Translations under genes and position numbers: made by a program
Part shown: one piece after another, positions 19,492 to 35,845 of the stretch
Layout of the letters: each line of letters opens with the position of its first letter
Numbering within the stretch: the stretch's first letter is position 1
Assembly: GCF_017795745.1 (NCBI RefSeq)
Contig: NZ_CP059067.1
Span: forward strand, 620,001 to 684,000
From: Rhizobacter sp. AJA081-3
GTDB lineage: Bacteria > Pseudomonadota > Gammaproteobacteria > Burkholderiales > Burkholderiaceae_C
Direction: 5' to 3'
Length of the DNA: 64,000 bases
The notes under the pieces: generated by a model
Seen by the model: only the letters and a program-made list of their open reading frames with translations
The model's database searches: none
Told to the model about the DNA's origin: nothing

Positions 19492-21033
19492 TCAGTCGCC
19501 CAGCAGCCGGCGCTTCAAGCGGATCTTCGTCATGTCCTCGACGTTGGCGCGCTGCGGGGCGCCGAAGCGGCGCTCGACCAGCGCCAGGTAGTCGGGGTTG
19601 GTGAAGTAGGTCTGGAAGGCCTCGTCGCGGAAGCGCAGCACCTCGGCGGCGCTGGCGTGCTTGGTGGCCAGCGGCTCGCAGTCGTAGGACAGGAAGGCGT
19701 AGCCGGCGTAGCTGTCGGGCAACTTCCAGCCGTTGCGGATGGCCTGGCGGTAGATCGGGCTGCCGGGCAGCGCCTGGCAGGGGTACATGTTGGCCATCTC
19801 GGTGTTCAGCTCGAGCGCCAGGTCCAGCGTCTGCTGCATCGTCGCCAGCGTGTCGTCGGGGAAGCCGAAGATGTAGTTGCTGATGACGTTGATGTCGGCG
19901 TCGCGCACCGTCTTGCAGATCTCGCGGATGTTCACTTCCTGGAAGGAGCCTTTGGAGACCTCCTTGCGCACCAGTTGGCTGCCCGCCTCGATGCCCAGCG
20001 CCAGCCAGCCGATACCGGCCTTCCGGAACAGCTCGAGCGCCGAGGGCCGCACCGTGTCCACGCGCGAGTAGGCCCACATGCGCAGCTTCAGGTCGCGCTC
20101 GACGATGTTGTTGAGCAGCGGCTCGTAGTAGCGCCGGTTGAGGAAGAACATCTCGTCGCTGATGCGCACCGTCTCGACGCCCATCTTCGCCAGCTTCTCC
20201 AGCTCGGCGGTGATGAGCGCGGTGCTCCAGAACCGCATGCCGCGCGAGTGGGCGGCATGCACCTCCTCGCCGTTGTCGTTGCGGTTGACGATGTTGATCA
20301 TGCAGAAGTCGCAACCGAAGTTGCAGCCCAGCGAGGTGTAGATCGCGGCGAAGGGCGTGCGCTTCGAATGGTCGAAGCCGGCATGCCAGAAATGCGCGCG
20401 GTACAGGTCCAGCGGGCGCTCCTTGTAGGGCAGCAGGTCCCAGGCGTAGCCGGGCAGGTCCTCGTCCATCTTCTCCTGCGGCACCACGGCCTGCGGCGGG
20501 TTCAGCCACAGCACCGGCTTGCCCTCGCGGTCGCGCTTCTTGTAGCCGATGCCGGCCACCTTGGCGATGTCGTCCTTCAGGTTGCCGCGCAGCAGGTTGT
20601 GCAGCGCGTACACGCCTTCGTTGAGGAACACGATGTCGGTGCAGGGCAGCGCCAGCACCTCGCGCGGCAATGCGCTGGTGTGCGAGCCGACGAAGGCCAC
20701 CGGCAGGCCGGGCAGCTCGTCCTTGATCTGCTGGGCCAGGCGCGTCGCGCCGATCATGCTGGTCGTGCCCGAGTTCGGGTTCTGGCCGTAGACGACGAAG
20801 ACGACGAGGCGCGGCTTCAGATCGCGCGTGCGCTGCACGGCGGCCTCGAGCGAGAGCTTCTCGGCATCGCAGTCCATGATCGCCGCGCCGAAGCCCTTGG
20901 CCCGGCACGATTGCGCCAGCAGCAGCGACCAGGTCGGCGGCTCGATCGCCGAATAGGTAGCCGCCAGGCCCTGGTAGGCGGTGGCCGACGAATCCGGGTT
21001 GATCAGCAGGACGTCGAGCGCTCGTTCGTTCAT
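19492..21033 (-). CDS. B12-binding-domain radical SAM enzyme of the glycan operon
   Basis: The 513-residue protein has an N-terminal cobalamin-binding-like Rossmann domain (about 1-150) and a radical SAM domain with the [4Fe-4S] motif C237-NFG-C241-DF-C244, then SDEMFFLNRR and GIEAGSQ typical of the family. Members methylate unreactive carbon or phosphorus centres or catalyse ring rearrangements. It is the last gene of a ten-gene leftward operon for a sugar nucleotide and its transfer, with a gap of only 2 nt from the upstream glycosyltransferase. A role in C-methylation or deoxygenation of the sugar is therefore an inference. The canonical DxHxxG cobalamin motif was not seen, as in several subfamilies. 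Confidence 0.88.
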   Translation of the reverse strand: MNERALDVLLINPDSSATAYQGLAATYSAIEPPTWSLLLAQSCRAKGFGAAIMDCDAEKLSLEAAVQRTRDLKPRLVVFVVYGQNPNSGTTSMIGATRLAQQIKDELPGLPVAFVGSHTSALPREVLALPCTDIVFLNEGVYALHNLLRGNLKDDIAKVAGIGYKKRDREGKPVLWLNPPQAVVPQEKMDEDLPGYAWDLLPYKERPLDLYRAHFWHAGFDHSKRTPFAAIYTSLGCNFGCDFCMINIVNRNDNGEEVHAAHSRGMRFWSTALITAELEKLAKMGVETVRISDEMFFLNRRYYEPLLNNIVERDLKLRMWAYSRVDTVRPSALELFRKAGIGWLALGIEAGSQLVRKEVSKGSFQEVNIREICKTVRDADINVISNYIFGFPDDTLATMQQTLDLALELNTEMANMYPCQALPGSPIYRQAIRNGWKLPDSYAGYAFLSYDCEPLATKHASAAEVLRFRDEAFQTYFTNPDYLALVERRFGAPQRANVEDMTKIRLKRRLLGD

Positions 21034-21035
21034 GT

Positions 21036-22160
21036 TCAGTCCCAGAAGCGGGGGGCGATGCCGGTGCGCGTCCATTCGAGGATTTGCGCGACGCGGTGCT
21101 CCGACGTGTGGTGGCTCTTCGCGTTGGCGAGGCAACGCTCGCCGATGCGCTCGGCCAGGCCCGGCTCGCGCTTCAGGCGCTCCAGCGTGTCGGCCAGCGA
21201 CTCGGGATCGTCGTTTTCGAAGAAGAGGATGTGCTCGTCCTCGCGGAACAAGCGCGCCGTCTGCGGATGGGACGGAATGCGCCAGGAGACTACTGGCTGG
21301 CCGATCGCCATGCTCTCGACCACGCGGCCCGCGTAGGTCTTCACGAAGGAGGTCAGGTTCACCGTCGCCAGGCTGTCGGACAGCCCGTCGAGGAACAGGT
21401 CGAAGAGCTTGGCGCGCACCTGCTGCAACGTGTCGACGAAGCGCTCCATGTCGGCCTGCCGGCAGGGCTGCTCGAGCATCGCCTGGCGCACCGGATTGTT
21501 GAGCTGATCGAACATCTTCGGCAGCTCGGTGGCGTGTTCGCCCGAGGCGCGGAACTCGAGCAGGCCTTGCTTCAGCCGGTCGTTGTGCTGGTACTTGGCA
21601 CGCCGCTGGTAGGCGCTGCCGATGAAGACGGCCGGGCGCGACGTGTTCGGCGCGCTGCGGCGGAAGAAGCGGCGCGGCACGTGGCAGGGGGTCCACACCG
21701 CCTGCGCGCCCATGTTCTCGATGTGGCGCACGTCGTTCTCGTCGACGACGCCGAAATGCGTCACGTAGGGCAGCACGGCGCGCTGCATCAGCGGCACGCG
21801 GCGGCCGAGCTCGGGCACCTCGGCGTAGTCGGCGGCGTCGTAGTGCAGCGTCTCCATGACGATGCCCACGCGCACCGGGGCCAGTGTGGCCAGCCAGGCG
21901 AAGTCAACTTCTGCCAGCGGTGGCGGCGCCTCCCAGGCCGGGCGCTGCCCGAGCACGTGGGTGACGTCGTTGATCCAGACCTGGTCGAAGCGGTGGTCGC
22001 CCACCAGCTTGCGCGACCCCGCCCAGCAGCTCGTGAACAGCACCAGCACCTCATGCCCCGCCGCGCGCAGGCCTTCGACATAGGCCATGTGCGTGGTGTA
22101 CGACCACTGCCGGGCCGAGGCCCAGACCAGCATGTCGTGCTGGACGTAGAGGATCTTCAT
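21036..22160 (-). CDS. Glycosyltransferase, CgeB-like (GT-B fold)
   Basis: The 374-residue protein has a GT-B-like layout. The N-terminal domain begins MKILYVQHDMLVW, and the C-terminal half carries VFIGSAYQRR (about 195-204) and AGRVVESMAIGQPVVSW (about 288-304). These resemble the CgeB-like glycosyltransferase family, which acts on surface or spore polysaccharides. Donor and acceptor are unknown; given the operon, a GDP-linked modified heptose is a reasonable guess. It overlaps nothing but sits 19 nt after the SDR gene and 2 nt before the radical SAM gene. Confidence 0.8.
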   Translation of the reverse strand: MKILYVQHDMLVWASARQWSYTTHMAYVEGLRAAGHEVLVLFTSCWAGSRKLVGDHRFDQVWINDVTHVLGQRPAWEAPPPLAEVDFAWLATLAPVRVGIVMETLHYDAADYAEVPELGRRVPLMQRAVLPYVTHFGVVDENDVRHIENMGAQAVWTPCHVPRRFFRRSAPNTSRPAVFIGSAYQRRAKYQHNDRLKQGLLEFRASGEHATELPKMFDQLNNPVRQAMLEQPCRQADMERFVDTLQQVRAKLFDLFLDGLSDSLATVNLTSFVKTYAGRVVESMAIGQPVVSWRIPSHPQTARLFREDEHILFFENDDPESLADTLERLKREPGLAERIGERCLANAKSHHTSEHRVAQILEWTRTGIAPRFWD

Positions 22161-22179: not shown

Positions 22180-23118
22180 TCAGACGTTGCCGTGCACGGT
22201 GTTCTTTACCATCGTGAAGCCCTTGATCAGCTCGGCGATGCCGGCGTCCAGGGTCACGGCGGTCTTGAAGCCGGTGCGCTCCAGCTTGGCGTTGGAGACG
22301 ACGTAGTTGCGCTGGTCCGGGTCCTTGCCCACCGGGGCGTCGAGGAAGACGAAATCCGGCAGCTGCTTCTGGATGTGCTGGCACAGCTCGCGCTTGGAGA
22401 CGTTGGCCTCGCTCAGCCCGACGTTGTAGATCTGGCCGCGCATCGCCTCGAAGTTCTCGATGCCGTGCTGGAACACGCGCGCCACGTCGCGCACGTGGAT
22501 GTAGTTGCGCTTGAAGTCGCCCTCGAACAGCACGACGAAGCGGTCGTGCACGGCGCGGTGCACGAAGTCGTTGACGAGCAGGTCGATGCGCATGCGCGGC
22601 GACATGCCGAACACCGTGGCCAGGCGGAAGCTGATGGCGTTCTCGCGCTGCATCAGCTCGCCCTCGATGGCGACCTTCTCCTTCGCGTAGATGGAGATCG
22701 GGCGCAGCGGCGACTCTTCGGTGCAGAAGTTGTTGGCGTCGCCGGTGCCGTAGGCGCTGTTCGTCGTCGGCATCAGGATGCGCTGGTTGCGCGAGGCCAG
22801 GCGCAGCATCAGCAGGATGGCGTCGTGGTTGATCGTCTTGGCGCCGATCGGGTCGGCGTTGCACATCGGCGCGCCCACCAGCGCGGCCAGCGGGATCACG
22901 ATGTCGGCTTTCTTCAGCAGCGGCGCGAGCGTGCCCTCGACGCGGATGTCGCCCTTGACGACGTTGAACTTCGGGTCGCTGCAGACGTGGTTCAGGCTGA
23001 TCTGGCGGAACATGAAGCTGTCCAGCACGGTGACGCGGTGGCCCGCGGCCAGCAGCGAGGGCACCAGCGTGGAACCGAGGTAGCCGGCGCCGCCGGTGAC
23101 GAGGATGTCGTAGGCCAT
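22180..23118 (-). CDS. Extended-SDR sugar-nucleotide dehydrogenase/epimerase
   Basis: The 312-residue protein has the Rossmann motif GGAGYLG (9-15), a Ser/Thr-rich active-site strand ending SAYG (121-124), and the catalytic YxxxK at Y144-K148 (YAKEK). It belongs to the NAD-dependent epimerase/dehydratase superfamily. Next to gmhA, hddC and hddA its substrate is probably GDP-D-glycero-D-manno-heptose. In Campylobacter heptose loci, an SDR in this position (Cj1427-type) oxidises C4 of that sugar. C4 oxidation would create the 4-keto group needed by the ColD-like enzyme of the same operon. Simple epimerase or 4,6-dehydratase activity remains possible. Confidence 0.85.
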   Translation of the reverse strand: MAYDILVTGGAGYLGSTLVPSLLAAGHRVTVLDSFMFRQISLNHVCSDPKFNVVKGDIRVEGTLAPLLKKADIVIPLAALVGAPMCNADPIGAKTINHDAILLMLRLASRNQRILMPTTNSAYGTGDANNFCTEESPLRPISIYAKEKVAIEGELMQRENAISFRLATVFGMSPRMRIDLLVNDFVHRAVHDRFVVLFEGDFKRNYIHVRDVARVFQHGIENFEAMRGQIYNVGLSEANVSKRELCQHIQKQLPDFVFLDAPVGKDPDQRNYVVSNAKLERTGFKTAVTLDAGIAELIKGFTMVKNTVHGNV

Positions 23119-23146
23119 GAATCGTTCTCCGTGGGTCTTGTCGGGG

Positions 23147-23737
23147 TCAGGCGGGCGCGAACAGCGCCGCCTCGACGCATTCGCACAGCGTGTGCGCCAT
23201 CACGATGTGCAGTTCCTGGATGGTGCTGGTGGCGCTGCCCGGGGCGACGAGGCAGAAATCCGCAAGCTCGCGCGCACGGCCGCCGCTGCGGCCGGTGAAG
23301 ACGATGCTGGGGATGTCCATGCGACGGCATTGCTCCAGGGCTTGGAGGATGTTCGGCGATTCGCCGGAGGTGGTAATTCCGAGAAAGACGTCCTTTCCCG
23401 TGGCTTTACCGGCCAGCTGGCGGGCGAACACCTGGTCGAAGCCGTAGTCGTTGCCGATGGCGGTGAGGATGGAGGTGTCGGTGGTCAGCGATTCGGCCGG
23501 CAGCGGCGCCCGGTCGCGCGCCAGCTTGCTGACGAATTCGGCGGCCAGGTGCTGCGCATCGGCCGCCGAGCCGCCGTTGCCGGCGATGTACAGGCGGCCG
23601 CCGGCGCGGTATCGGGCGATCACGGTGTCGACGGCACGCGCGAACACGGCCAGCGTGGCCGTGTCGGCGGCCAGCGCCTGCTTGGCGCTGATGGAGGCGT
23701 CGATGTTGCGGCGGATGCGGTCAACCGGCGAGGTCAT
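23147..23737 (-). CDS. gmhA: Sedoheptulose-7-phosphate isomerase (SIS domain)
   Basis: The 196-residue SIS-domain protein has the sugar-phosphate loop GNGGSAAD (53-60) and TTSGESPNIL near 125, as in GmhA/LpcA. It converts sedoheptulose 7-phosphate to D-glycero-D-manno-heptose 7-phosphate, the first step of both ADP- and GDP-heptose synthesis. Its start overlaps the end of hddC by 17 nt. Because it lies between hddC and the SDR with hddA in the same operon, it is probably the dedicated copy for the GDP route, not the lipopolysaccharide core copy. Confidence 0.9.
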   Translation of the reverse strand: MTSPVDRIRRNIDASISAKQALAADTATLAVFARAVDTVIARYRAGGRLYIAGNGGSAADAQHLAAEFVSKLARDRAPLPAESLTTDTSILTAIGNDYGFDQVFARQLAGKATGKDVFLGITTSGESPNILQALEQCRRMDIPSIVFTGRSGGRARELADFCLVAPGSATSTIQELHIVMAHTLCECVEAALFAPA

Positions 23738-24452
23738 GGGCGGGCTCCGTGGATCGTGCGGTCGGCAGGACCGAGGCGGCGCGGTGGTAATCGGCCGGTA
23801 CGCCGATGTCGATGAAGGCGCCATGGCTCTCGACGCCGGCAAAACGCTGGCCGTCGGCGAGCAGTTGCGGGAACAGGTTGTTCTCCAGCGACGCGGCCTG
23901 TCCCGGGGCGAGACTGACGGCGTCGAGCGCGCCGGGGCGGAACAGGTAGACGCCGCCGTTGGCCAGCGGTGCGGTGGGCGCGCGCAGCGCGGTGATCAGG
24001 CCGTCCTGGGACAGGCCCACGCCCATGTAGCGCGCCGGGTCGGTGTTGCGGAACAGCGAGAAGCACCAATCGGCGTCGTGGCGGCGCGCGCGTGCCGTGA
24101 GTTCGCGCAGCGGCACGTCGAAGTACGTGTCGCCGTTGAGCAGCAGCGTGTACTCGTCGCGCGGCAGGTTCGCGGCGGCGAGCATCACGGCGCCGCCGGT
24201 GCCCAGCGGCGCGGTCTCGACCACGTAGTCGATCGCGGCGCCGTGGTAGCGGCGGCCGAAGTGGCTGCTGATCGCCTCGTGGCGGTAGCCGACGGAGAGC
24301 ACGAAGCGGCCGACGCCCTGCGCGATCCAGTGGTCCATCTGGTGGGCCAGGAAGGGCCGCCCGGCGATCGGGGCCATGGGCTTGGGCAGGTCGGGGACGG
24401 CGCTGCGCAGGCGAGTGCCGAGGCCGCCGGCGAGGATGATGGCGGTGGTCAT
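23721..24452 (-). CDS. hddC: D-glycero-D-manno-heptose 1-phosphate guanylyltransferase-like nucleotidyltransferase
   Basis: The 243-residue nucleotidyltransferase has the signature GGLGTRL (9-15) and KPMAPI, plus LLNGDTYFD (about 108-116) for the metal/sugar site. HddC activates D-glycero-alpha-D-manno-heptose 1-phosphate with GTP to give GDP-heptose. The specific call depends on the neighbouring gmhA and hddA; by sequence alone it could be another hexose-1-phosphate nucleotidyltransferase. The start at 24452 aligns the conserved N-terminus and lies 16 nt after the upstream aminotransferase-fold gene. Confidence 0.85.
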   Translation of the reverse strand: MTTAIILAGGLGTRLRSAVPDLPKPMAPIAGRPFLAHQMDHWIAQGVGRFVLSVGYRHEAISSHFGRRYHGAAIDYVVETAPLGTGGAVMLAAANLPRDEYTLLLNGDTYFDVPLRELTARARRHDADWCFSLFRNTDPARYMGVGLSQDGLITALRAPTAPLANGGVYLFRPGALDAVSLAPGQAASLENNLFPQLLADGQRFAGVESHGAFIDIGVPADYHRAASVLPTARSTEPAHDLAG

Positions 24453-24468
24453 GCGATCGGCCCGTGCA

Positions 24469-25644
24469 CTAGACCGCGTTGACGATGCGGCAGATCGCAT
24501 CGATCTCGTCGTCGCGCAGGTCCGGAAAGTTGCCGATGTAGAAGCCGTAGAAGTGCACGTGCTCGGTGTGCGGGAAGGCCAGGTGATGGTCCTTCGGCAC
24601 GATGCCGCGCAGGTAGGGCTGGCGCAGCTGGTTGCCGCCGCCGGCGCTGCCGCGGCGGAACTCGATGCCGGTCTCGCGCATCGTCGCCATCAGGCGCTGC
24701 ACGTACTCCGGGTCGGCCGCCTTCATGATCAGGTTGAAGGCGTAGTTGCTGCTGCCTTCGAGCTTGAAGTCGGTCTGGTAGCGCTTGTCGTCGATGCGCT
24801 CGAGGAAGCGCTGCAGGTTCTGCGTGCGGCGCAGCACGTTGGCGTCCAGCCGCTTGAGCTGGCTGCGGCCCATGATGGCGCCGATCTCGGTGTTGCGCAC
24901 GTTGTAGGCGGGGTAGGCGAAGATGAAGTCCGGGTTCAGCTCCGGGTTCGCCTCGCGCCACGCCGTCCGGTAGTCCGCATCGTTGCTCTCGCGCACCATC
25001 CCGTGCGAACGCAGCATGCGGATCTGCTGGTAGACCTCGGCATCGTCGGTGCACACCATGCCACCCTCGATGGTGCTCATGTGGTGCGCGTAGTAGAAGC
25101 TGAAGTTCGACATCCAGCCGATGCTGCCCAGGCGCCGCCCGTTGTGCGTGGCGCCATGCGATTCGCACACGTCCTCGATCAGCGGGATGCCTCGGCGGTC
25201 GAGCTCGGCGATCAGGCCGTCGGTCAGGCCGTCGAAGCCTTGCACGTGGGTGAGGAACACGGCGCGCGTCTTGTCGGTGATCTTCGCGAGGATCTGATCC
25301 GGCGCCATCGCCAGCGTGCGCGGGTCGATGTCGGCGAACACCGGCGTGAAGCCGTTCTGCAGCACCGTGGCCACGTCGGAGATCCAGGTCAGCGGCGGCA
25401 CGATCACCTCGCCGCCCTCGGGGTGGCGGATCTTCAGCAGCGCCATCGACAGCAGATTGGCCGAGGCGCCGGAGTTCACGAACACGCTGTACTTCACGCC
25501 CAGCCACTTCGACCATTCCTGCTCGAAGGCCACGCACTGCGGGCCGTTGGTCAGGATGGGGTCGTCCTGCTGCAGGTGGGCGATCACCGCGTCGAGGTCC
25601 TCGCGCGCGATGTTGTTGCGCATCAGGGGGTACTTGGCTGCCAT
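24469..25644 (-). CDS. ColD/RfbH-type PLP-dependent sugar 3-dehydratase (DegT/DnrJ/EryC1 fold)
   Basis: The 391-residue DegT-family protein has the usual fold (GPQCVAFEQEW, NSGASANLL, IEDVCESHGA). The active-site lysine that binds PLP in aminotransferases is replaced: the motif reads SFYYAHHMSTIEGGM, with His187-His188. This same Lys-to-His change defines ColD (GDP-4-keto-6-deoxymannose 3-dehydratase) and RfbH, which remove the C3 hydroxyl rather than transaminate. The length matches ColD (388) better than the iron-sulphur RfbH. In the operon the likely substrate is a GDP-4-keto-heptose. It is tightly packed between the ThDP enzyme genes and hddC. Confidence 0.88.
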   Translation of the reverse strand: MAAKYPLMRNNIAREDLDAVIAHLQQDDPILTNGPQCVAFEQEWSKWLGVKYSVFVNSGASANLLSMALLKIRHPEGGEVIVPPLTWISDVATVLQNGFTPVFADIDPRTLAMAPDQILAKITDKTRAVFLTHVQGFDGLTDGLIAELDRRGIPLIEDVCESHGATHNGRRLGSIGWMSNFSFYYAHHMSTIEGGMVCTDDAEVYQQIRMLRSHGMVRESNDADYRTAWREANPELNPDFIFAYPAYNVRNTEIGAIMGRSQLKRLDANVLRRTQNLQRFLERIDDKRYQTDFKLEGSSNYAFNLIMKAADPEYVQRLMATMRETGIEFRRGSAGGGNQLRQPYLRGIVPKDHHLAFPHTEHVHFYGFYIGNFPDLRDDEIDAICRIVNAV

Positions 25645-25652
25645 CGCTGCGC

Positions 25653-26189
25653 TCACTTCTCGGAGTAGTAGTCGCCGTACTCGACAATCAGCGTGCTGCG
25701 ACCGTCGTCGCGCAGCAGCGCGCGCTCGTAGGCGGGGAAGATGTCTTCCGGCTCGTCCAGGCGGATCACCTCGATGCTCTTGCACATCAGGCGCAGCGCC
25801 TCGGTGTAGTCGCCCACGTGCTGGTGCTGCGGGTGCAGCGGCCGCTCCGAGCCGATACCGGTGCGCACGATAGCTTTCGCCTTGTAGCCGCCGTTGCTCA
25901 TCACCGCGAGCTTGTCGAGGTGGTTGACGAGCTGGCTGAGGCCGCACATCAGGAAGTTCCAGCGCGGGAAGATGCTCACCGGCACCTGGCCGGCCAGCGC
26001 GAGGCCGGTGGTCATGCCCATCTGCAGCTCTTCCGCGACGGGCAGCTCGATCAGCCGGCCCGGCGCCACGTCCTTGAGCGTGTTGCTCATTGCCGTGCCC
26101 GGCACCGCCACCGCCTGGCCCATGAAGACCACGCGCGGGTCGGCGGCGAGGAATTCCATCGAGCGCTTGAGTTCGTCGAAGTACTTCAT
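25653..26189 (-). CDS. Minimal E1-beta-like (PYR-domain) subunit of a thiamine-diphosphate enzyme
   Basis: The 178-residue protein matches only the N-terminal pyrimidine-binding half of 2-oxoacid dehydrogenase E1-beta/transketolase proteins. It includes the ELPVAEELQMGMTTGLALAG segment, where Glu of the EE pair is the cofactor-activating glutamate. The C-terminal transketolase domain of normal E1-beta subunits (about 325 residues) is absent. The stop is followed 8 nt later by the ColD-like gene, and it lies 10 nt after its E1-alpha-like partner, so the pair should form one active site. A carboligase acting on a keto-sugar nucleotide is inferred from context. Confidence 0.82.
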   Translation of the reverse strand: MKYFDELKRSMEFLAADPRVVFMGQAVAVPGTAMSNTLKDVAPGRLIELPVAEELQMGMTTGLALAGQVPVSIFPRWNFLMCGLSQLVNHLDKLAVMSNGGYKAKAIVRTGIGSERPLHPQHQHVGDYTEALRLMCKSIEVIRLDEPEDIFPAYERALLRDDGRSTLIVEYGDYYSEK

Positions 26190-26199
26190 CGTGTGCTCC

Positions 26200-26802
26200 T
26201 CAGAACTGCACGCGCTGGCCGGCGCCCGCGTGCGGGTAGCGGGTCTGGTAGCGGTAGTAGTGGATGTACTCGTCGCGCTGGTTCTCGAAGCTGAGCTTGC
26301 TCTGGTTCCAGGCGGCGCGGGTGTCGGTGCAGACCGATTTCTCGTTGTCCTCGACGACGAAGCGGATCGGCAGGCGGTGATTGCGGCTGTACTTGATGCT
26401 CTCGTGCGCGATGCCGGTCTCGGCCGTCATCTCGCCCATGAAGCAGTGCACGCGGGCATCCTCGCCGCTGCGTGCGATCGCCAGCGCCGTGCCCACGGCG
26501 ATCGGCAGCACGCCGCCGACGATGGCCGAGGAGTAGATGCGCTGTTCGGGAAAACACAGCGAGATCGAGCGCCCGGCCATGATCTCGTCCATCACCGCCG
26601 CGGGAGGCACGCCCTTGAGCAGGCACTGGTAGTGCGAGCGCCAGGAGCAGAACACCCAGTCGTTCTTGCCGATGCCCTTGAACACCTCGATCATCTGGGC
26701 CTCGTTGCCCGAGTACAGGTGCACCGGGGCGCGGATCTTGCCGGCGTTGAAGCGCGCGGCCACCTCGTCCTCGAAGGCGATCAGGTCTTGTGCGGTCATC
26801 AT
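26200..26802 (-). CDS. Minimal E1-alpha-like (PP-domain) subunit of a thiamine-diphosphate enzyme
   Basis: The 200-residue protein aligns with the diphosphate-binding domain of E1-alpha subunits: HLYSGNEAQ near 28, RSHYQCLLKG near 55, then the cofactor motif starting at GEM (123-125) and ending at Asn153. This follows the canonical GDG-x(about 27)-N spacing but with GEM for GDG. It lacks the last 100 or more residues of ordinary E1-alpha. ATGATG gives two possible starts (26802 or 26799). With the adjacent PYR subunit it would form a compact split ThDP enzyme, with no lipoyl partner (E2/E3) nearby. Confidence 0.82.
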   Translation of the reverse strand: MMTAQDLIAFEDEVAARFNAGKIRAPVHLYSGNEAQMIEVFKGIGKNDWVFCSWRSHYQCLLKGVPPAAVMDEIMAGRSISLCFPEQRIYSSAIVGGVLPIAVGTALAIARSGEDARVHCFMGEMTAETGIAHESIKYSRNHRLPIRFVVEDNEKSVCTDTRAAWNQSKLSFENQRDEYIHYYRYQTRYPHAGAGQRVQF

Positions 26803-26815
26803 GGCGGGGGGCTCC

Positions 26816-27814
26816 TCAGCACAGGCCGTTGGGCTGGTAGAGCACCACCCGGCTGCCGGACTCGTCGAAGTTGAAGGGCACGTGGATCAGGTGCTTGAGC
26901 GCCTCGCGCACCTTGGGCTGGTTCTCGGGCTTGACGAACAGCAGCAGGAAGCCGCCGCCGCCGGCACCGAGGATCTTTCCGCCGATCGCGCCAGCGTCGC
27001 GCGCGGTCTGGTAGATCTGGTCGATCTCGCCGGTCGAGACCTTGTCGGACAGCTGCTTCTTGGTCTGCCAGGCCTCGTGCAGCAGGTCGCCGAACTCCTC
27101 GATCGGGCGGTTGCAGCTGTGCAGGATCTGCACCGCTTCCTCGACCATCTCGCGCATGCGCATCAGCTCGGTCTCGCGCTGCTTGAGGTTGGCGATCTTC
27201 GACTGCGCCACCTCGGCGGCGATGCGCGAGAAGCCGGTGAAGCACAGCATCAGGTGCTTCTGCAGCTCGTTCAGGCGCTTCTTCTTGACGATCACCGGCG
27301 AGACCTGGAAGGCGCCGCTGCGCAGGAACTCGATGCGGTTGAAGCCGCCAAAGGCCGCGGCCACCTGGTCCTGGCTGCCCACGCTCTCGCCGATCACGTT
27401 CTGCTCGATGTGGATGGCGTCGCGTGCCAGCTGCTCCTTGCTGACCATGTTGCCCTTCAGCGCGGCCAGCGCGTGCACCAGGCCGACGGTGAAGGACGAG
27501 CTCGAGCCCAGGCCCGAACGCGCCGGCAGGTCGCCGTCGTGGTGGATCTCCAGGCCCTTGTTGCAGTTGGCCCAGCTCAGCACGCCGCGCACCGCGGGGT
27601 GCTTGATCTCGTCCCAGTGGCGCACGTTCTCGATCGCCGAGTAGACGATACGGTGCTTGTAGTCGAAGAAGGGCGGCAGGTGCCGGCAGGTGATGTAGCA
27701 GTACTTGTCGATCGAGGTGGAGAGCACCTCGCCGCCATGCTTCTGGAACCAGGCCGGGTAGTCGGTGCCGCCGCCGAAGAAGGAGATGCGGAACGGCGTA
27801 CGCGTGATGATCAT
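26816..27814 (-). CDS. hddA: D-glycero-D-manno-heptose 7-phosphate kinase (GHMP family)
   Basis: The 332-residue GHMP kinase has an N-terminal substrate motif TPFRISFFGGGTDYP (6-20), the ATP loop PARSGLGSSSS (97-107), and a C-terminal GGKILGAGGGGFLLLF motif. HddA phosphorylates C1 of heptose 7-phosphate in the alpha configuration, committing it to GDP-heptose. Together with gmhA and hddC the operon covers the GDP-heptose route except the GmhB-type phosphatase, which is not in this window and may be shared with the lipopolysaccharide pathway. Confidence 0.92.
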   Translation of the reverse strand: MIITRTPFRISFFGGGTDYPAWFQKHGGEVLSTSIDKYCYITCRHLPPFFDYKHRIVYSAIENVRHWDEIKHPAVRGVLSWANCNKGLEIHHDGDLPARSGLGSSSSFTVGLVHALAALKGNMVSKEQLARDAIHIEQNVIGESVGSQDQVAAAFGGFNRIEFLRSGAFQVSPVIVKKKRLNELQKHLMLCFTGFSRIAAEVAQSKIANLKQRETELMRMREMVEEAVQILHSCNRPIEEFGDLLHEAWQTKKQLSDKVSTGEIDQIYQTARDAGAIGGKILGAGGGGFLLLFVKPENQPKVREALKHLIHVPFNFDESGSRVVLYQPNGLC

Positions 27815-27827
27815 CGCCGGCGCTCCT

Positions 27828-29360
27828 TCAGGCGGCGATCGCGTTCAGCGCGCCGGGCTGGGTCGGCGCGGCCAGGTGGTAGACGTGGTCCGCGTCGACC
27901 GCGTCGTCGGGCAGCAGCAGCTCGGCCTGCAGCGTGCGCGCGGTGGTGCGCTCCTGCAGCGTTGTCTCGGTCTTGGTCAGCACCAGCTTCATGAAGGCGG
28001 CCTGCTCGCGGGCGCATTCCTTCAGCGTCGCGTCGAGGTAGGTCGAGGTGGTGACAACGAAGCGGTGCTCGAACCAGCCGAGGTACCAGAACCACTCGGT
28101 GTAGTAGAGCCACGAGTTCTCGTTCATCGCGCGCACGTGCGTCGGGTCCTGCCAGGCCGTGGGTGCGTGTTCGTAGGGCACCTCGATGTGGAACTCGCCG
28201 CCTTCGGCCAGCAGCGAAAGGCAGTTGCCCATCAGCGTGGGCAGGTCGCCGACGTGCTCGAGCACGTTGTTGGCATTGATGGCCTGCACGCTGCCGGCTT
28301 CCAGGCGCACGGCACCGGCGGTCGGCGAGGCAGTCTCGAAGGGCAGGGCCAGCGGCTTCGACAGGTCGAGCAGCAGGTCGGGTGCGGCACGCTCCAGCAC
28401 GTCGAGATTCAGCCAGCCGGCCTTGTAGTCGCGGCCGGAACCGAGGTTGATGCGCTCGGGCTGCCAGGCCGCGGTGGGCCGGCGCTCGTGGTGGGCACCG
28501 GCGAAGCCGGCGGCGAAGGCCAGCAGGTCGGCGTAGGCCTCGATCGGGTCGGCGGCCTCGAAGCGCTGCAGCGCGGCACGCGCCACCTCGTAAAAGTCGG
28601 CGGTGCCGAAGTCCTCGGCGAAGAACTGCTCGAGCTGCTCGCCTTCGAGCCAGAACACGCTGTCTTCGAAGGCGGCGTGCGGGCGCGTCTGCGCGGTGCG
28701 CTCTGAGATCACCGGCGTACCCAGCGACAGGCAGTGCGCCACGCGCGCCTGCTCGAAGCGGCTGCTCTCGTAGAAGTGGCAGTTCACCACCGCCTTGGCC
28801 TGCAGGATGAACTGGTCGCGCTCGGGGCCGTACAGCGCCGAGTCGAACACGGCCACGGTCAGGCCGAAGGCCTCGATGCGGTCCAGCCAGGCGCGGCGGC
28901 GCTCGTTCATGCTGCCGATGAACAGCAGGTCGATCGGGCGCTCCTCCAGCGGCAGGGCCGCGGGGTTGGCGAGGTAAGGGGCGTGCAGCAGCGGCACCAC
29001 GGGCACGGCGTCGGGCTGGTCGGTGTAGGCGGCCACGTTGTCGGCGTCGTAGTCGACCACGGCCGACTGGCGCAGCAGCTGGCGGTAGGCGTCGGAGACG
29101 GTCGCGCCGCCCTCGCCGAGCTGCTCGAGGTTGACGAACACGCAGGCGTTGCGCTGGCACTGCGTGGCATCGAAGCCCAGGTGCGCGCCGAACACGAAGT
29201 TCACCGCGTCGTGGCGCAGCCGGTTCTTCGCCAGGCTCACGTTCGCGCCTAGGCGGCGGAACTGGTAGCGGAAGTAGCGCGCCTGGTCGACCAGACCCAG
29301 GGAGTGCACGTACCCGGCGGGTTGCACGATGCACAGGTGGATCTCGGGCAGCTTGCTCAT
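27828..29360 (-). CDS. Two-domain CgeB-like glycosyltransferase / SAM methyltransferase
   Basis: The 510-residue protein has an N-terminal glycosyltransferase-like domain with FIGSMNERR (147-155) and VAHCLSLGTPVISE (about 207-220), the same pattern as the proteins at 21036-22160 and 55825-56766. From about residue 300 a Rossmann methyltransferase follows: LGSGRDYKAGWLNLDV (306-321), then ANNVLEHVGDL and a GGEFHIEVPY strand. It could both transfer and O-methylate a sugar. It is the first gene of the ten-gene operon; the spacing to hddA is 13 nt. The gap upstream contains a large inverted repeat. Confidence 0.78.
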   Translation of the reverse strand: MSKLPEIHLCIVQPAGYVHSLGLVDQARYFRYQFRRLGANVSLAKNRLRHDAVNFVFGAHLGFDATQCQRNACVFVNLEQLGEGGATVSDAYRQLLRQSAVVDYDADNVAAYTDQPDAVPVVPLLHAPYLANPAALPLEERPIDLLFIGSMNERRRAWLDRIEAFGLTVAVFDSALYGPERDQFILQAKAVVNCHFYESSRFEQARVAHCLSLGTPVISERTAQTRPHAAFEDSVFWLEGEQLEQFFAEDFGTADFYEVARAALQRFEAADPIEAYADLLAFAAGFAGAHHERRPTAAWQPERINLGSGRDYKAGWLNLDVLERAAPDLLLDLSKPLALPFETASPTAGAVRLEAGSVQAINANNVLEHVGDLPTLMGNCLSLLAEGGEFHIEVPYEHAPTAWQDPTHVRAMNENSWLYYTEWFWYLGWFEHRFVVTTSTYLDATLKECAREQAAFMKLVLTKTETTLQERTTARTLQAELLLPDDAVDADHVYHLAAPTQPGALNAIAA

Positions 29361-29919: not shown

Positions 29920-31530
29920 TCAGGCCGGCAGGTGCTCGGGCGGCAGCCCGTCGCAGGCACGGTCCCACAGGCGCTGATAGAGCGCCTCGATGTCGCGGGC
30001 GAAACGCTGGCCGTCGAACAGCGATCCCGTGTTGCACGCCGTGCGCAATCGGTCACGGATGGCTGCGCGCCTGGCCTCGTCTTGGGCCAGTGCGGCCACG
30101 GTCGCGACGTAGCCGGCTTCGTCGCCGCAGACCAGTTCGTCCAGGCCGACCTGGTGCAGCAGGCTGGCGGCCACGCGCTGGGCGAAGGTCTGGCCGATCA
30201 CGGTGACCACCGGCACGCCGACCCACAGCGCCTCGCCAGCGGTGGTGTGGGCGTTGCACGGCCAGGTGTCGAGGAAGACGTCGGCGCAGGCCAGGCGCGC
30301 CAGGTGCTCGTCCAGCGGCAGCAGCGGTGCGAACAGCAGCCGTTCGGGGCCGATGCCTCGCGCGGCGGCGGCGGCGAGCAGCGAGTCGCGCACGTTGGCA
30401 TTCCATTGGAGCAGCCACAGTACGGCGTCGGGCAGGCGCTGCAGCAACTCGCACCAGCGGTCGAACACCGCGGCCGAGATCTTGTAGGACTGGTGGAAGC
30501 CGCACAGCAGCGTCTTGTCCAGTGGCAGGCCGAAGGCGGCGCGGTCGGCGCTCACTGGGCGCGCGCGACGCGCATCGTTCGGCTGGTAGCAGCCGGGCAG
30601 TTGCGCGATCCTCTCGGTGAAGTGCGCGGCATGGGCCAGCGGCGTGACGATCGGGTCGCCGACGATGTAGTCGATGTAGCCGGCGCCGCTGGTGCCGGGA
30701 AAGGCCAGCCAGTTCAGCTGCAGCGGCGCCGGCCGCGCGGCCAGCACCGGCAGCAGCGTGCCGTCGGTCGCGCCCTTCACGTCGACGAGGATGTCGATGT
30801 TCAGCTCGCGGATGCGCCGCGCCATCGCGTCGTGGCTGCGGCCGCGAACGTCCTCGAAACGATGGCAGGCGGCGCGCAGGCGCCGGCGCATCGGGCTGCC
30901 GTCGTCGGGGCCGGCCGAGACCAGCGTGACCTCGAAACGCTCGCGGTCGTGGCTCTCCAGCATCTGCACCATCAGCTGCGCGGTGGCGTGCTGGTAGAAG
31001 TCGCCCGACAGGTAGGCGATGCGCAGCCGCCCGCCATGGCGCTGTGCGCGGCGCGGCGGCAATGGCTTGACGAAGGTGCCGAAGAAGCGCGCGTAATGCT
31101 CGGCGACGCGGCGGATCGCGAGCGGATCGTCGCTCAGCACCGCGTGCACGAAGGGGTTGACCTGCAGCGGCGCGCCTTCGGGCAACGCGCGGATCGCCGC
31201 TTCGAGCGCCGCCCACTCGGCGTCGGCCGCTGCCCAGCGGCAGCCTTCACGCTCCATGTAGACGAGCAGGCCGCGTGCGAACAGGGCCTCGTCGAAGCCG
31301 AGCAGCAGCGCGGTGCGGATGCACTCGGCAGCCTCCAGCTTCATGCCGCAGTCGCGGAACGAGACGCCCAGGCGGTAGTGCGTGAAGGCGTCGTCCACCT
31401 TCAGCGCCAGCGACTGCAGGAAGCACTGGATCGCATCGGCGTGCAGCTGCCGGCCCTGCAGCTCGAGGCCGCGCGCGGTGAGCGCACGCGAGTCGAGCGC
31501 TGAGGCGGGGCGCGAGGCGACGATCGCCAT
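29920..31530 (-). CDS. GT41 (SPINDLY/OGT-like) glycosyltransferase with short TPR region, copy 1
   Basis: The 536-residue protein has one or two N-terminal TPR-like repeats (about 20-95) followed by the OGT catalytic region. Features are LRIAYLSGDFYQHATAQLM (about 149-167), a CGFHQSYKISAAVFD motif and AHTTAGEALWVGVPVVT (nucleotide-sugar site). GT41 enzymes add GlcNAc or related sugars to Ser/Thr of cytosolic proteins. TPR-GT41-like enzymes such as Caulobacter FlmG glycosylate flagellin. It is the downstream member of a tandem pair, its start overlapping the stop of copy 2, and it lies 3.5 kb from the flagellin genes, so flagellin is the prime candidate acceptor. Confidence 0.87.
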   Translation of the reverse strand: MAIVASRPASALDSRALTARGLELQGRQLHADAIQCFLQSLALKVDDAFTHYRLGVSFRDCGMKLEAAECIRTALLLGFDEALFARGLLVYMEREGCRWAAADAEWAALEAAIRALPEGAPLQVNPFVHAVLSDDPLAIRRVAEHYARFFGTFVKPLPPRRAQRHGGRLRIAYLSGDFYQHATAQLMVQMLESHDRERFEVTLVSAGPDDGSPMRRRLRAACHRFEDVRGRSHDAMARRIRELNIDILVDVKGATDGTLLPVLAARPAPLQLNWLAFPGTSGAGYIDYIVGDPIVTPLAHAAHFTERIAQLPGCYQPNDARRARPVSADRAAFGLPLDKTLLCGFHQSYKISAAVFDRWCELLQRLPDAVLWLLQWNANVRDSLLAAAAARGIGPERLLFAPLLPLDEHLARLACADVFLDTWPCNAHTTAGEALWVGVPVVTVIGQTFAQRVAASLLHQVGLDELVCGDEAGYVATVAALAQDEARRAAIRDRLRTACNTGSLFDGQRFARDIEALYQRLWDRACDGLPPEHLPA

Positions 31531-33470
31531 CAGACCGCCGCCAGGTGCTCGGGTGCGAGCCCGGCCACGGCACGCGCCCACATGCGCTCGTACAGCGCCT
31601 CGATGTCGCGGGCGAAGCGCGCGCCGTCGAACAGCGCGCTGGCCCTTCGCTGTGCCGCCAGATGCTCGCGCAAGCCGGCGCGCCGGGCGGCATCGCCGGC
31701 CAGCGAGATCACGCGCGCTTCGTAGTCGGTCACTGTGGTGCAAGTGAGTTCATCCAGCCCCACCGCATGCAGCAGGCTGGGCGCCACGCGCTGCGCGAAG
31801 GTCTCGCCGATCACGGTGACCACCGGCACGCCCACCCACAGCGCCTCGCCGGCGGTGGTGTGCGCGTTGCACGGCCAGGCGTCGAGGTAGAGGTCGGCAC
31901 AGGCCAGGCGGCTGAGGTGCTGGTCCAGCGGCAGCATGGGTGCGAAGCACAGACGCTCGGGGCCGATGCCTCTGGCGCGCGCCGCCGCTTCGAGCGCCGA
32001 CTGCACGTTGGTGTTCCAGCGCATCAGCCACAGCACCGCGCCGGGCACGGCGTGCAGCACACGGCACCAGCTGTCGAACACCGCCTCGGAGATCTTGTAC
32101 GACTGGTGGAAGGCACACAGCAGCGGCACGCCCTCGGGCGCGCCCCAGTCGCTGCGCTTCGATGGCGCGGGCAGCGCGCGCTGCGCGTCGTTGGGTTGGT
32201 AGCAGACCGGCATCTGCGCGAGCTTCTCGCTGAAGTGCGCGGCATGCGCCAGCGGCGTGGTGAGCGGGTCGCCGATGAAGTAGTCGACGTACGCTGCCCC
32301 TGTCGTGCCCGGGAAGCCGAGCCAGCTGACCTGCAGCGGCGCGGCGCGGTGGGCCGTCACCGGCATCAGCGTGCCGTGGGTCGCGCCCTTCACGTCGACG
32401 AGGATGTCGATGCCGAGCTCGCGGACGCGCCGGGCCATCGCCTCGTGCGACTGGCCGCGCAGGTGCTCGAAGTGCTCGGCGCTGGCCACGATGCGTGCGC
32501 GCAGCGGGCTGGCGTCGTCGGGGCCGGCGGAGAACAACGTCACCTCGAAGCGCTCGCGGTCGTGCCGTTCGAGCATCTGCACCATCAGCTGGCTGGTGGC
32601 GTGGGTGTGGAAGTCGGCCGACAGGTAGCCGATGCGCAAGCGGCCCTCGTGGGCCTTGGCCTTGCGCAGCGGCAGCGGGCTCACGCGGCTGGCCACGTGC
32701 TGCGCATACAGGCGCGCCACCTTCAATTGCTCCAGCGGGTCGTCGACGAACACCGCGTGCGGGAAGGGACCGGTCTCGCCCGGGCGGTCGGCCGGCGCGG
32801 TCTGCACGGCGCGGCGCAGCCTGGCGAGCTCGTCGGCAGCGGGGGCCCAGCGGCAGGCCTCGCGCTCCAGGAAGACGAGCTGCGCGCGGGCTGCGAGCTC
32901 GCTGCTGTCGAGGCCGAGCAGCAGGGCGGTGCGCACACATTCGGCGGCCTCGGCCTTCATGCCCTTGTCCTTGAACGACATGCCCAGGCGGAAGTGCACC
33001 ACGGGTTCGTCGATCTTCAGGGCCAGCGCCTGCATGAAGGCGGGGATGGCGTCATCGTGGCGATGGCAGCGCTGCAGCGAAACGGCCAGCGACACCCAGA
33101 AGGCGTGGTCTCGCGGCGCGTCGGCAGGCAGCGCCTGCAGGCAGGCCACGGCCTCGGCATTGCGGCCGCGCTCCATCAGGGCGTGCGACTCCAGCGTGTA
33201 GGCCAACGTCAGAGACGGTCGCCGCTGGCGCAGCGACAGCGCCCGCTGCGCCGCCACGTCGGCGCGGCCCGCCTTGATGAGGGCGTGCGCGGCGGCCAGG
33301 CCGTAGGCCGACTCGTCGTGCATCGCGAAGGCCTGCTCGAACTCCAGCGCTGCCTGGCCCCAGTGCTCGCGCTGCGCACAGGATTGCGCTGCGCTCCACT
33401 TGCGGTAGGCGCGCTGCTGCGCCGGCGAGGCAGGCGAGGGCGGGGACGGCTGGGGCAATGACAAGGCCAT
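31530..33470 (-). CDS. GT41 (SPINDLY/OGT-like) glycosyltransferase with TPR array, copy 2
   Basis: The 646-residue protein is a close paralogue of the gene just downstream, with a longer N-terminal helical TPR array (about 20-210; alternating small residues typical of about five TPRs). The OGT catalytic motifs are intact: LRIGYLSADFHTHATSQLM, CAFHQSYKISEAVFD and AHTTAGEALWVGVPVVT. The extra TPRs suggest a different acceptor or a scaffold role. Its stop overlaps the start of copy 1. It follows the GT2-TPR gene by 63 nt, making a three-gene leftward unit that diverges from fliC1. Confidence 0.87.
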   Translation of the reverse strand: MALSLPQPSPPSPASPAQQRAYRKWSAAQSCAQREHWGQAALEFEQAFAMHDESAYGLAAAHALIKAGRADVAAQRALSLRQRRPSLTLAYTLESHALMERGRNAEAVACLQALPADAPRDHAFWVSLAVSLQRCHRHDDAIPAFMQALALKIDEPVVHFRLGMSFKDKGMKAEAAECVRTALLLGLDSSELAARAQLVFLEREACRWAPAADELARLRRAVQTAPADRPGETGPFPHAVFVDDPLEQLKVARLYAQHVASRVSPLPLRKAKAHEGRLRIGYLSADFHTHATSQLMVQMLERHDRERFEVTLFSAGPDDASPLRARIVASAEHFEHLRGQSHEAMARRVRELGIDILVDVKGATHGTLMPVTAHRAAPLQVSWLGFPGTTGAAYVDYFIGDPLTTPLAHAAHFSEKLAQMPVCYQPNDAQRALPAPSKRSDWGAPEGVPLLCAFHQSYKISEAVFDSWCRVLHAVPGAVLWLMRWNTNVQSALEAAARARGIGPERLCFAPMLPLDQHLSRLACADLYLDAWPCNAHTTAGEALWVGVPVVTVIGETFAQRVAPSLLHAVGLDELTCTTVTDYEARVISLAGDAARRAGLREHLAAQRRASALFDGARFARDIEALYERMWARAVAGLAPEHLAAV

Positions 33471-33533
33471 GGTCGGGCGAGGTTACGCGCCGCATCCCGC
33501 TCGCCAGCGCCGGAAAAGGCAGGCCCGAGCCGG

Positions 33534-34607
33534 CTATTTCACGCCGGTCATTGCGGCCGCGGCGCGCCACTGCGCCGCGCGTTCGCGCCAGGTGCGTGCT
33601 TGCGCCTCCTGGCCCAGGCTCTGGTGGAAGGCCGCGAGGTTGTGCGCGGCGAGGAAGCTGCCGCGCCCTCGCACGCTGTCAGGCAAGTCGGGCCGCTCGC
33701 CGATGGCCACGGCGCGCTGCCAGGCGGCCTCGATGCGCGGCAGCAGGGCGGCGGCCTGCGCGGGCTGCGCCAGCGCGGTGTCGAGCAGCAGGTCGCCGAG
33801 CGTGAAGAAGAAGTCGGGCGAGTCCTGCCAGCGCGCCTGCTCGGCCTGTGCCAGGGCCAGCGCAGCCTCGAACCGGTGCGTCTTCTTCAGCGTGAAGAGC
33901 AGGCGCACCACCAGGTCGTGCCGCCACGCGGCGCTGGGCTCGCCGCGGCGGTGCGCCTCTTCATAGAAAGGCAGGGCTTCGGCGAAGCGCGAGCGCACCT
34001 CGAGGTCCTTGCCGAGCTGGTAGTGAAGATAGGCATCGTGCGGCTGCTCGGCCAGCGCCAGGCGCAGCAGGCGCTCGTTGCGCCCGGCCTTGGCCTGCTG
34101 CGATGCGGCCAGGTAGCCGTCGTGGCCCAAGAGCAGCGGCAGGCGGCGCCGCGGCAGCGGGCTCACCGGCTGTTCGTGGATGCGCCCCTCGTAGCGCACG
34201 CCGGCCGGCAGCACGCGCGGCAGCCAGCTGGGTGCCTCCTGCAGCAGACCGCCCTCGGCCTCGACCTGGCTGCTCACCGTGATCAGGCCGACGAAGGCCG
34301 GCGGCTCCCCGCGCAGCGCGGCCAGTGCGGCCTGCCCGCCGGCGATCCATTCGTCGGCGTCGAGGACGAGCCGCCACGGTGCCTCGGTGGCCGCGAGCGC
34401 GCGGTTGCGCGCGGCACTGAAGTCGTCGGCCCAGTCTGCCGATAAGACCCTGGCACCGCAGGCTGCGGCGAGATCGCGCGTGGCGTCGGTGGAGCCGGTG
34501 TCGAGCACGATCATCTCGTCGACCCAGGGCTTCGCGCTGTGCAGGCAGCGCTCGATGCAACGGGCTTCGTTGCGGACGATCATCACCAGCGCGATGGCTT
34601 CAGACAT
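33534..34607 (-). CDS. GT2-family glycosyltransferase with C-terminal TPR-like repeats
   Basis: The 357-residue protein has an N-terminal GT-A domain: VMIVRNEARCIERCL (8-22), LDTGSTDAT, and the metal-binding LDADEW near 80-85. Helical TPR-like repeats (about 190-340) follow. Proteins with this layout transfer sugars to proteins or peptides. It is the first gene of the unit with the two GT41 genes, divergent from fliC1 across 399 nt, which favours a role in flagellin glycosylation. A perfect FliA -10 element lies antisense inside its 5' part. Confidence 0.82.
   Translation of the reverse strand: MSEAIALVMIVRNEARCIERCLHSAKPWVDEMIVLDTGSTDATRDLAAACGARVLSADWADDFSAARNRALAATEAPWRLVLDADEWIAGGQAALAALRGEPPAFVGLITVSSQVEAEGGLLQEAPSWLPRVLPAGVRYEGRIHEQPVSPLPRRRLPLLLGHDGYLAASQQAKAGRNERLLRLALAEQPHDAYLHYQLGKDLEVRSRFAEALPFYEEAHRRGEPSAAWRHDLVVRLLFTLKKTHRFEAALALAQAEQARWQDSPDFFFTLGDLLLDTALAQPAQAAALLPRIEAAWQRAVAIGERPDLPDSVRGRGSFLAAHNLAAFHQSLGQEAQARTWRERAAQWRAAAAMTGVK
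34418..34445 (+). promoter_or_regulatory. Possible antisense FliA promoter inside the GT2 gene
   Basis: TGAAGTC (34418-34424), 13 nt, then the perfect sigma-28 -10 GCCGATAA (34438-34445), oriented toward fliC1. The spacer is one longer than in most sites of this window but equals that of the fliC1 site. It could give an antisense transcript over the GT2 5' end or an upstream fliC1 start. It may also be chance. Confidence 0.35.
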
Positions 34608-35810: not shown

Positions 35811-35845
35811 TCGACCACGCCGCGGGCTCGTCCCGCGCGTTGGCA

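Follow-up and report, generated by a model that had tools for sequence, protein, structure and literature searches.

A putative operon for a 3-deoxy, C4-branched heptose in Rhizobacter joins a minimal two-subunit thiamine enzyme to a B12/radical-SAM protein

A 64,000-nucleotide stretch of the Rhizobacter sp. AJA081-3 genome (contig NZ_CP059067.1, forward-strand positions 620,001 to 684,000; hereafter the window, numbered from its first letter) carries a likely operon of nine genes. We predict that it converts sedoheptulose 7-phosphate into an activated higher sugar, 3-deoxy and branched at C4, that would be placed on a surface glycan, here probably flagellin. We give this reading a probability of roughly 60%. 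In the proposed pathway, a short-chain dehydrogenase/reductase (SDR) would oxidize C4 of guanosine diphosphate (GDP)-heptose with alpha-ketoglutarate as electron acceptor, and a ColD-type enzyme would take off O3 to give GDP-D-glycero-3-deoxy-4-keto-heptose, a compound that has been made in vitro with Campylobacter enzymes; homology argues strongly for both steps. A short E1-alpha/E1-beta-like pair dependent on thiamine diphosphate (ThDP) may then decarboxylate pyruvate and transfer the resulting acetyl carbanion to the ketone at C4, which would become a tertiary alcohol bearing a 4-C-acetyl branch. A B12-binding radical S-adenosylmethionine (radical-SAM) enzyme, whose genes keep company with ThDP genes, could work on the branched product, ring closure being the boldest option, and glycosyltransferases would transfer the final sugar. 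An earlier note on this DNA, made without database searches, had proposed the oxidation, dehydration and C4 branching. As far as homology goes its main line is right, and it is partly supported overall: it erred on the kind of ThDP enzyme and was too modest about the radical-SAM step.

Three sets of loci (handles beginning with L) were compared. The first holds 33 genome loci found via E1-alpha, and the second 33 radical-SAM loci drawn from 14 of 17 genomes of the order, 3 of 4 plasmid matches, 13 places outside the window's genome and 3 of 4 genomes of the genus of genome G434, probably Bradyrhizobium. The third comprises 83 viral loci, the best 80 of at least 581 viral relatives with 3 more from a previous scan; since many of these contigs appear to be near-duplicates, the viral loci are not independent.

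C4 oxidation and 3-dehydration of GDP-heptose

The nine genes lie on the minus strand between 27814 and 19492; intergenic gaps measure 2-28 bases, apart from a single 17-base overlap between the hddC-like and gmhA-like genes, a spacing that makes a single operon likely. They are transcribed in the order hddA-like kinase, E1-alpha-like, E1-beta-like, DegT/ColD-like, hddC-like, gmhA-like, SDR, glycosyltransferase (374 amino acids (aa), 21036..22160, Glyco_trans_1_2, PF13524) and B12/radical-SAM. The gmhA, hddA, hddC, SDR, ColD/RfbH-type and two-subunit ThDP genes grouped in the earlier note are all present on the minus strand where it had placed them, and Pfam and NCBIfam fit its family-level names, with no NCBIfam cut-off attained.

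The supply genes have GmhA, HddA and HddC as their best or near-best NCBIfam models. The kinase (332 aa, 26816..27814), a putative D-glycero-D-manno-heptose 7-phosphate 1-kinase, carries Pfam GHMP kinase domains and scores best with HddA (NF049969; 164 bits, cut-off 600). For the sugar-1-phosphate guanylyltransferase (243 aa, start inferred, 23721..24452, PF00483), the HddC model gives 149 bits against a cut-off of 300, and a mannose-1-phosphate guanylyltransferase model scores slightly above it at 150.8, also under cut-off. The sedoheptulose 7-phosphate isomerase (196 aa, start inferred, 23147..23737, PF13580) reaches 165.5 bits with the GmhA model TIGR00441 against 209.45. We infer that these genes supply GDP-heptose, a reading helped by the structure that the SDR matches. 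In one related cassette (L063:16299-17477) the nucleotidyltransferase is fused to a HAD phosphatase-like domain and could cover the HddC and GmhB steps in a single protein.

That structure is PDB entry 6vo6, which matches residues 2-306 of the SDR (312 aa, 22180..23118) at an E-value of 5e-105; the runner-up among PDB sequences is at 5.5e-21, so the relation is specific and goes beyond general SDR similarity. We take 6vo6, labeled by the search tool as a putative sugar-nucleotide epimerase/dehydratase, to be Cj1427, an alpha-ketoglutarate-dependent GDP-heptose C4-dehydrogenase, and the match is strong grounds for expecting that the SDR oxidizes C4 of GDP-heptose and passes the electrons to alpha-ketoglutarate. 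Cj1427 holds its NADH tightly and is reset by turning alpha-ketoglutarate into L-2-hydroxyglutarate (PMC10680097). An L-2-hydroxyglutarate oxidase would recycle this by-product, and the FAD oxidase of some related cassettes is such an enzyme, since both examples tested (L061 and L100) pass the NCBIfam cut-off (491.1 and 327.7 against 299). These neighborhoods lend indirect support to Cj1427-type C4 oxidation and, together with the homology, favor the C4-oxidizing role first proposed for the SDR. Genes of this kind occur at a minority of loci (7/33 E1-alpha, 7/33 radical-SAM and 4/83 viral), examples among the heptose cassettes being L100 (NC_012797, Solidesulfovibrio magneticus plasmid pDMC1), L084, L090, L091, L093, L094 and L061. 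The window has none, and the host genome's best match elsewhere scores 197.7 against the cut-off of 299.

For the DegT-family protein (391 aa, 24469..25644), a predicted pyridoxal/pyridoxamine phosphate (PLP/PMP)-dependent 3-dehydratase, the best PDB matches are the ColD entries 2gms, 3b8x, 2r0t and 3gr9. It has the hallmark of ColD, a histidine in place of the PLP-binding lysine: His187 aligns with a ColD residue, presumably His188, which entries 3b8x and 2r0t show as N and K, respectively. H187 and H188 are near-invariant across 31 alignment rows, and in a separate comparison of 14 DegT proteins, the window's included, 13 have the histidine, the sole lysine being in a Bradyrhizobium-like stretch (L165). 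Six cassettes with full-length E1 subunits (L090, L091, L093, L094, L095 and L100) use another DegT subfamily, about 30% identical to the window's protein, that retains the histidine. Curated models score 177.6 of 423 bits (RfbH) and 172.3 of 423.5 (PseC), with no ColD-specific model among those listed. Homology thus backs the earlier 3-dehydratase assignment and strongly suggests that the protein removes O3 to give GDP-D-glycero-3-deoxy-4-keto-heptose.

The same intermediate forms in vitro when Cj1427 is combined with the HS:5 C3-dehydratase, in a paper whose heading terms such heptoses novel (PMC10680097), and the window operon would unite the two predicted activities in one gene set. Campylobacter jejuni GDP-heptose modification likewise has GDP-heptose supply genes, Cj1427-type C4 oxidation and ColD-type 3-dehydration (PMC10680097), with natural 3-deoxygenation coming after a 4,6-dehydratase (PMC10440746). 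In C. jejuni the ketone is epimerized and reduced, whereas the window ketone is expected to meet the ThDP and B12/radical-SAM enzymes instead.

A minimal E1-like pair and its radical-SAM companion

The two ThDP subunits are unusually compact. By Pfam, E1-alpha (200 aa, 26200..26802) consists of a PP domain only (PF00676, E 4e-18) and E1-beta (178 aa, 25653..26189) of a PYR domain only (PF02779, E 2.9e-12), the latter matching the pyruvate dehydrogenase (PDH) E1-beta structure 1ik6 (E 4e-12). An AlphaFold2 (AF2) model of E1-alpha (predicted local distance difference test (pLDDT) score 88.3) has human PDH E1-alpha 3exe as its best fold match. G123, M125 and N153 of E1-alpha are invariant in 26 sequences, keeping a G-E/D-M...N pattern, and E53 of E1-beta is near-invariant in 33 rows; we take these to be the ThDP cofactor residues, which gives the pair an E1-alpha/E1-beta-like two-subunit architecture with its cofactor residues in place. 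E1-alpha is not a truncated pseudogene, since 26 aligned sequences share its length and C-terminus. The first half of the phage protein family phrog_34187 matches E1-alpha and its second half E1-beta; because a single chain joins both parts, the pair is likely one enzyme. Synechococcus phage S-SM2 (L247) and Prochlorococcus phage P-TIM68 (L248) carry a similarly joined gene, annotated 'transketolase central region' and 36% identical over the E1-alpha part, that lies among heptose genes beside a zinc alcohol dehydrogenase. The only other E1-alpha-like match in the window's own genome is distant, at 34%.

The earlier note had likened the branching step to yersiniose A synthesis, in which the ThDP enzyme YerE puts a two-carbon unit on a 3-deoxy-4-keto sugar nucleotide. 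Homology favors the C4-branch idea and rejects the YerE type: YerE is a single-chain decarboxylase of the acetolactate synthase kind, and here two separate chains match E1_dh and Transket_pyr. YerE belongs to the decarboxylase superfamily, acts on cytidine diphosphate (CDP)-3,6-dideoxy-4-keto-glucose (PMC12247030) and is a single flavoprotein (PMC4753412), in contrast to an E1-like two-subunit enzyme beside heptose genes. Closest in kind are the alphaKADH2 enzymes of aldgamycin and kibdelomycin (KbDH-alpha/beta), with AviB1/AviB2 and EvdU5/EvdS3 as proposed members, which are two-subunit PDH-E1-like ThDP enzymes (PMC12247030, PMC10338323, PMC4753412). They place a C2 branch from pyruvate on keto sugars, with knock-out, feeding and in vitro data for some (PMC12247030). 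The window pair may work in the same way, and transfer of an acetyl group to the ketone at C4 is what we consider its most probable role, but we do not class it as a classical alphaKADH2, because its E1-beta has the PYR domain only. Its subunits are also shorter; full-length E1 subunits are found in L090-L095 and L100, among other sister cassettes. The available texts describe alphaKADH2 for antibiotics and mention no radical-SAM partner.

The last gene of the operon (19492..21033) encodes a 513-aa enzyme with a B12-binding domain (PF02310) and a radical-SAM domain (PF04055), the architecture of HpnJ and BchE. Its C237xxxC241xxC244 cysteines are invariant in 23 sequences, and its AF2 model has a pLDDT of 85.6. 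The gene lies outside the interval that the earlier note had marked out, yet it is part of the set. Its membership of the operon holds, but to say that it merely completes the operon understates a steady ThDP companion, present at 24/33 cellular E1-alpha loci and 78/83 viral loci. Its ThDP neighbors are of three kinds, short E1, full-length E1 and split transketolase, a linkage suggesting that the radical-SAM enzyme uses the product of the ThDP step and hence acts on the branched sugar.

The genes keep together over wide distances. At the 33 E1-alpha loci, E1-beta is found at 32, the kinase at 31, the ColD-like gene at 30 and the SDR at 28, so the co-occurrence of hddA, ColD-like and split E1 genes for which the earlier note had suggested searching is real; the 33rd locus, L056, has an E1-beta fragment at a contig end. 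The radical-SAM loci hold the kinase at 29, a ThDP alpha- or N-subunit at 27 and the SDR at 24. Those 27 subunits divide into 16 split transketolases, 8 full-length E1 and 3 short E1, each with its partner subunit beside it, and two of the other six loci (L086 and L087) have a distant E1-alpha, 27% identical and under the threshold. Viral loci show E1-beta at 80, the SDR at 66, the ColD-like gene at 50 and the kinase at 44, with the radical-SAM gene listed directly before E1-alpha. The E1-alpha loci are labeled Burkholderiales/Betaproteobacteria (11), Pelagibacteraceae (11), other Alphaproteobacteria (1), Planctomycetaceae/Kuenenia (5) and Verrucomicrobia-type (4), plus L045, an uncultured bacterium whose cassette is closely like the Burkholderiales/Betaproteobacteria ones. 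Recurrence across these groups and viral contigs argues that the gene grouping is not chance.

Competing products and the radical-SAM step

Several observations weigh against the proposed pathway. The kinase, nucleotidyltransferase and isomerase all fall short of the NCBIfam equivalog cut-offs. E1-beta proteins usually have a C-terminal transketolase C domain, which is not present in the 178-aa protein, and the short pair shares only some 30% identity with the full-length E1 found in a related cassette. DegT proteins at least 45% identical to the window's occur at only 16/33 radical-SAM loci, with His-type DegT proteins near 30% at six more. The radical-SAM gene is absent from 9/33 E1-alpha loci, some cut by contig ends but not L048 and L066, where about 10 kb is available on each side. 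At 19/83 viral loci the stretch seen shows the SDR, radical-SAM gene and ThDP pair but neither a ColD-like gene nor a kinase. A gene resembling GDP-L-fucose synthase, whose protein might reduce a keto group, is present at 10/33 genome, 17/33 radical-SAM and 9/83 viral loci, so that a simple reduced product is possible there, which counts against a uniform product. Finally, transketolase-like proteins occupy the ThDP slot elsewhere and could donate a ketol instead of an acetyl group.

In one rival reading, the product is a 3-deoxy-4-C-acetyl or 4-C-(1-hydroxyethyl) heptose that the enzyme decorates, as a C-methyltransferase or perhaps a radical dehydratase or epimerase, with no ring formed. This is possible, though we would not bet on it. 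Cobalamin radical-SAM enzymes are mostly tied to methylation, but ring formation or rearrangement is ascribed to every non-methylating member named in one preprint, namely BchE, OxsB, HpnJ, PbsB and ladderane synthase (PMC13142503). The two best NCBIfam models are both non-methylating, HpnJ (106.9 bits, cut-off 577.6) and BchE (84.2, cut-off 481.35), which speaks against methylation; the methylase PhpK reaches 76.8. All are far under cut-off, so that the window enzyme shares the domain architecture of HpnJ and BchE but misses their curated thresholds, and the substrates differ. Both models match 23/23 family members, as do several methylase models such as PhpK, whose best E-values are weaker. 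In Foldseek the first neighbor of the model is AprD4, a diol dehydratase, followed by the methylases TsrM, MgmA, CysS and TokK and by OxsB. Neither profile scores nor fold neighbors by themselves settle the function. The window's genome also encodes BchE.

Ring closure is the boldest proposal, possible but less likely than not. The cassette might build a bicyclic sugar of the caryose type, with acetyl added to C4 and the radical-SAM enzyme then joining C7 to the acetyl carbonyl carbon, C8. Addition of a C7 radical to the C8 ketone would be a redox-neutral isomerization that fuses a cyclopentane to the sugar ring. 3-deoxy-4-C-acetyl-heptose and caryose, a carbocyclic lipopolysaccharide (LPS) sugar, compute as isomers, C9H16O7. 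Like the predicted sugar, caryose is 3-deoxy and has carbons C1-C7 plus a C8-C9 unit bonded to C4, as read from its name (PMC9671505); atom by atom, that name describes 3-deoxy-4-C-acetyl-heptose with one extra bond, C7-C8. Against this version, the name also gives caryose a C5 configuration opposite to that of D-manno-heptose, so that a C5 epimerase would be needed. No RmlC-like epimerase is among the nine operon genes of the window, and the window sugar would therefore be at most caryose-like. RmlC-like genes occur at 4/33 genome loci (all labeled Pelagibacteraceae), 4/33 radical-SAM loci and 19/83 viral loci; the RmlC-like 3,5-epimerase inside the Pelagibacteraceae cassettes L059 (13331-13816), L063, L067 and L070 is a candidate C5 epimerase of the 4-keto heptose. 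A literature search found no paper on caryose biosynthesis in the matches and texts available, and none of the four plasmid matches to the radical-SAM protein comes from Trinickia caryophylli, which we take to be the present name of the caryose producer.

The idea that this radical-SAM enzyme also makes bradyrhizose was rejected in that form, because genomes with the gene and photosynthetic genomes barely overlap. In the genus of G434, the radical-SAM gene is found (E 1e-50) in 4/195 genomes and photosynthetic reaction-center genes in 20/195, with only G791 in both; that 19 of the 20 photosynthetic genomes are without this family weighs against ring closure. Genome G938 has a cluster around its best SDR match (L164:14472 to L165:4665) with HldE-like, nucleotidyltransferase, SIS isomerase, split transketolase, zinc alcohol dehydrogenase and methyltransferase genes, a composition that the S-SM2 and P-TIM68 loci resemble, and no radical-SAM match in the three stretches searched. 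It is possibly the published gdh/bradyrhizose locus (PMC4743980), if G938 is strain ORS278.

An unlikely alternative has the ThDP enzyme lengthening or assembling the sugar chain through ketol transfer to an aldehyde, leaving C4 unbranched and the 3-deoxy-4-keto intermediate to be reduced or otherwise used. Ordinary transketolases act on aldehydes, and both the split transketolase-like proteins at 16/33 radical-SAM loci and the fucose-synthase-like gene at 17/33, a possible C4 reductase, fit this idea. The nine operon genes, however, include no second SDR-type gene that could reduce the ketone and no E2/lipoyl gene, and split transketolases have themselves been proposed to branch keto sugars (PMC12247030). 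Least probable of all, and quite improbable, is that the pathway leads to a sugar already described, for instance a simple 3-deoxy or 3,6-dideoxy heptose, and that the ThDP and radical-SAM genes work on other parts of the glycan: Campylobacter does make 3,6-dideoxy-heptoses with a ColD-kind C3-dehydratase (PMC10440746), but the two genes stay together in cellular and viral loci and the operon's single SDR gene is of the C4-dehydrogenase type.

Genomic setting and implications

Upstream of the operon lie a 510-aa protein (27828..29360, minus strand) with a weak methyltransferase-like match (PF13489, 24.7 bits, under the cut-off of 27) and relatives at 6/33 genome loci (L040, L041, L047, L048, L049 and L051), two tandem minus-strand GT41 (O-GlcNAc-transferase-like) proteins with TPR matches (33470-31530 and 31530-29920; PF13844, E 1.3e-84 and 2.6e-81) and a GT2 protein. 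Beyond them, on the plus strand, are two flagellin genes (35007-35810 and 36037-36843; PF00669/PF00700), followed by fliD (36995-38365, FliD domains). The GT41 proteins are probably flagellin glycosyltransferases, and the region 29920-36843, with the GT2 protein and the flagellin genes, is likely a cytoplasmic flagellin O-glycosylation island. Flagellin-like genes stand near the cassette at 6 of 69 loci searched (L042, L047, L048 and L051, with partial matches in L086 and L087). Pelagibacteraceae are not known to have flagella, so their sugar must go elsewhere.

Within the order, the short E1-alpha is found at 78% identity or more in 4/399 genomes, the window's included, and the radical-SAM gene (E 1e-40) in 17/399. 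Among named relatives, the closest found is L047, a metagenome assembly of Piscinibacter whose cassette proteins are 93-100% identical to those of the window. Another metagenome assembly, L043, is labeled Bordetella parapertussis, a label that looks doubtful; its cassette, at 63-85% identity, is like those of neighboring Burkholderiales loci. In plasmid records, E1-alpha had no match at E 1e-20 and the radical-SAM protein had four matches.

Two viral loci carry phage genes. In L074 the cassette sits among genes for a major head protein, a protease, a helicase and a late sigma factor, and L184 also has phage head genes; in both (L074:8497-14219; T4-like genes), radical-SAM, E1-alpha, E1-beta, kinase, ColD-like and SDR genes sit between the head/helicase genes and the late sigma factor, with a protein like beta-glucosyl-HMC-alpha-glucosyltransferase after the L074 cassette. 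Among seven proteins tested from L216 and L223 there was no structural phage gene, and the viral status of these and the remaining loci rests on IMG/VR classing. At E 1e-40, named phage records gave no match to the radical-SAM protein. Pelagimyophages are reported to have cassettes related to radical SAM proteins and LPS genes, with no branched-heptose reading in the available text (PMC7029224).

A literature search covering, among other topics, caryose, bradyrhizose, YerE, Cj1427, HpnJ, ring-forming radical SAM enzymes, flagellin heptose and phage E1 returned no description of this pathway among the matches listed, as far as their available text goes. C-branching by E1-like ThDP enzymes has been described for antibiotics, and branching of LPS sugars for YerE-like enzymes (PMC12247030). 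The present loci place an E1-like ThDP enzyme among surface-glycan genes in several phyla, in company with GDP-heptose genes and a cobalamin radical-SAM enzyme. If our reading holds, glycans yet to be described are to be expected on abundant organisms, Pelagibacteraceae among them, and in phages; the cassette would give a genetic handle on carbocyclic bacterial sugars and would likely enlarge the small group of non-methylating cobalamin radical-SAM enzymes by a new reaction. Should ring closure hold as well, the cassette would represent a route to carbocyclic surface sugars across Burkholderiales, Pelagibacteraceae, Planctomycetes, Verrucomicrobia, other proteobacteria and uncultivated phages.

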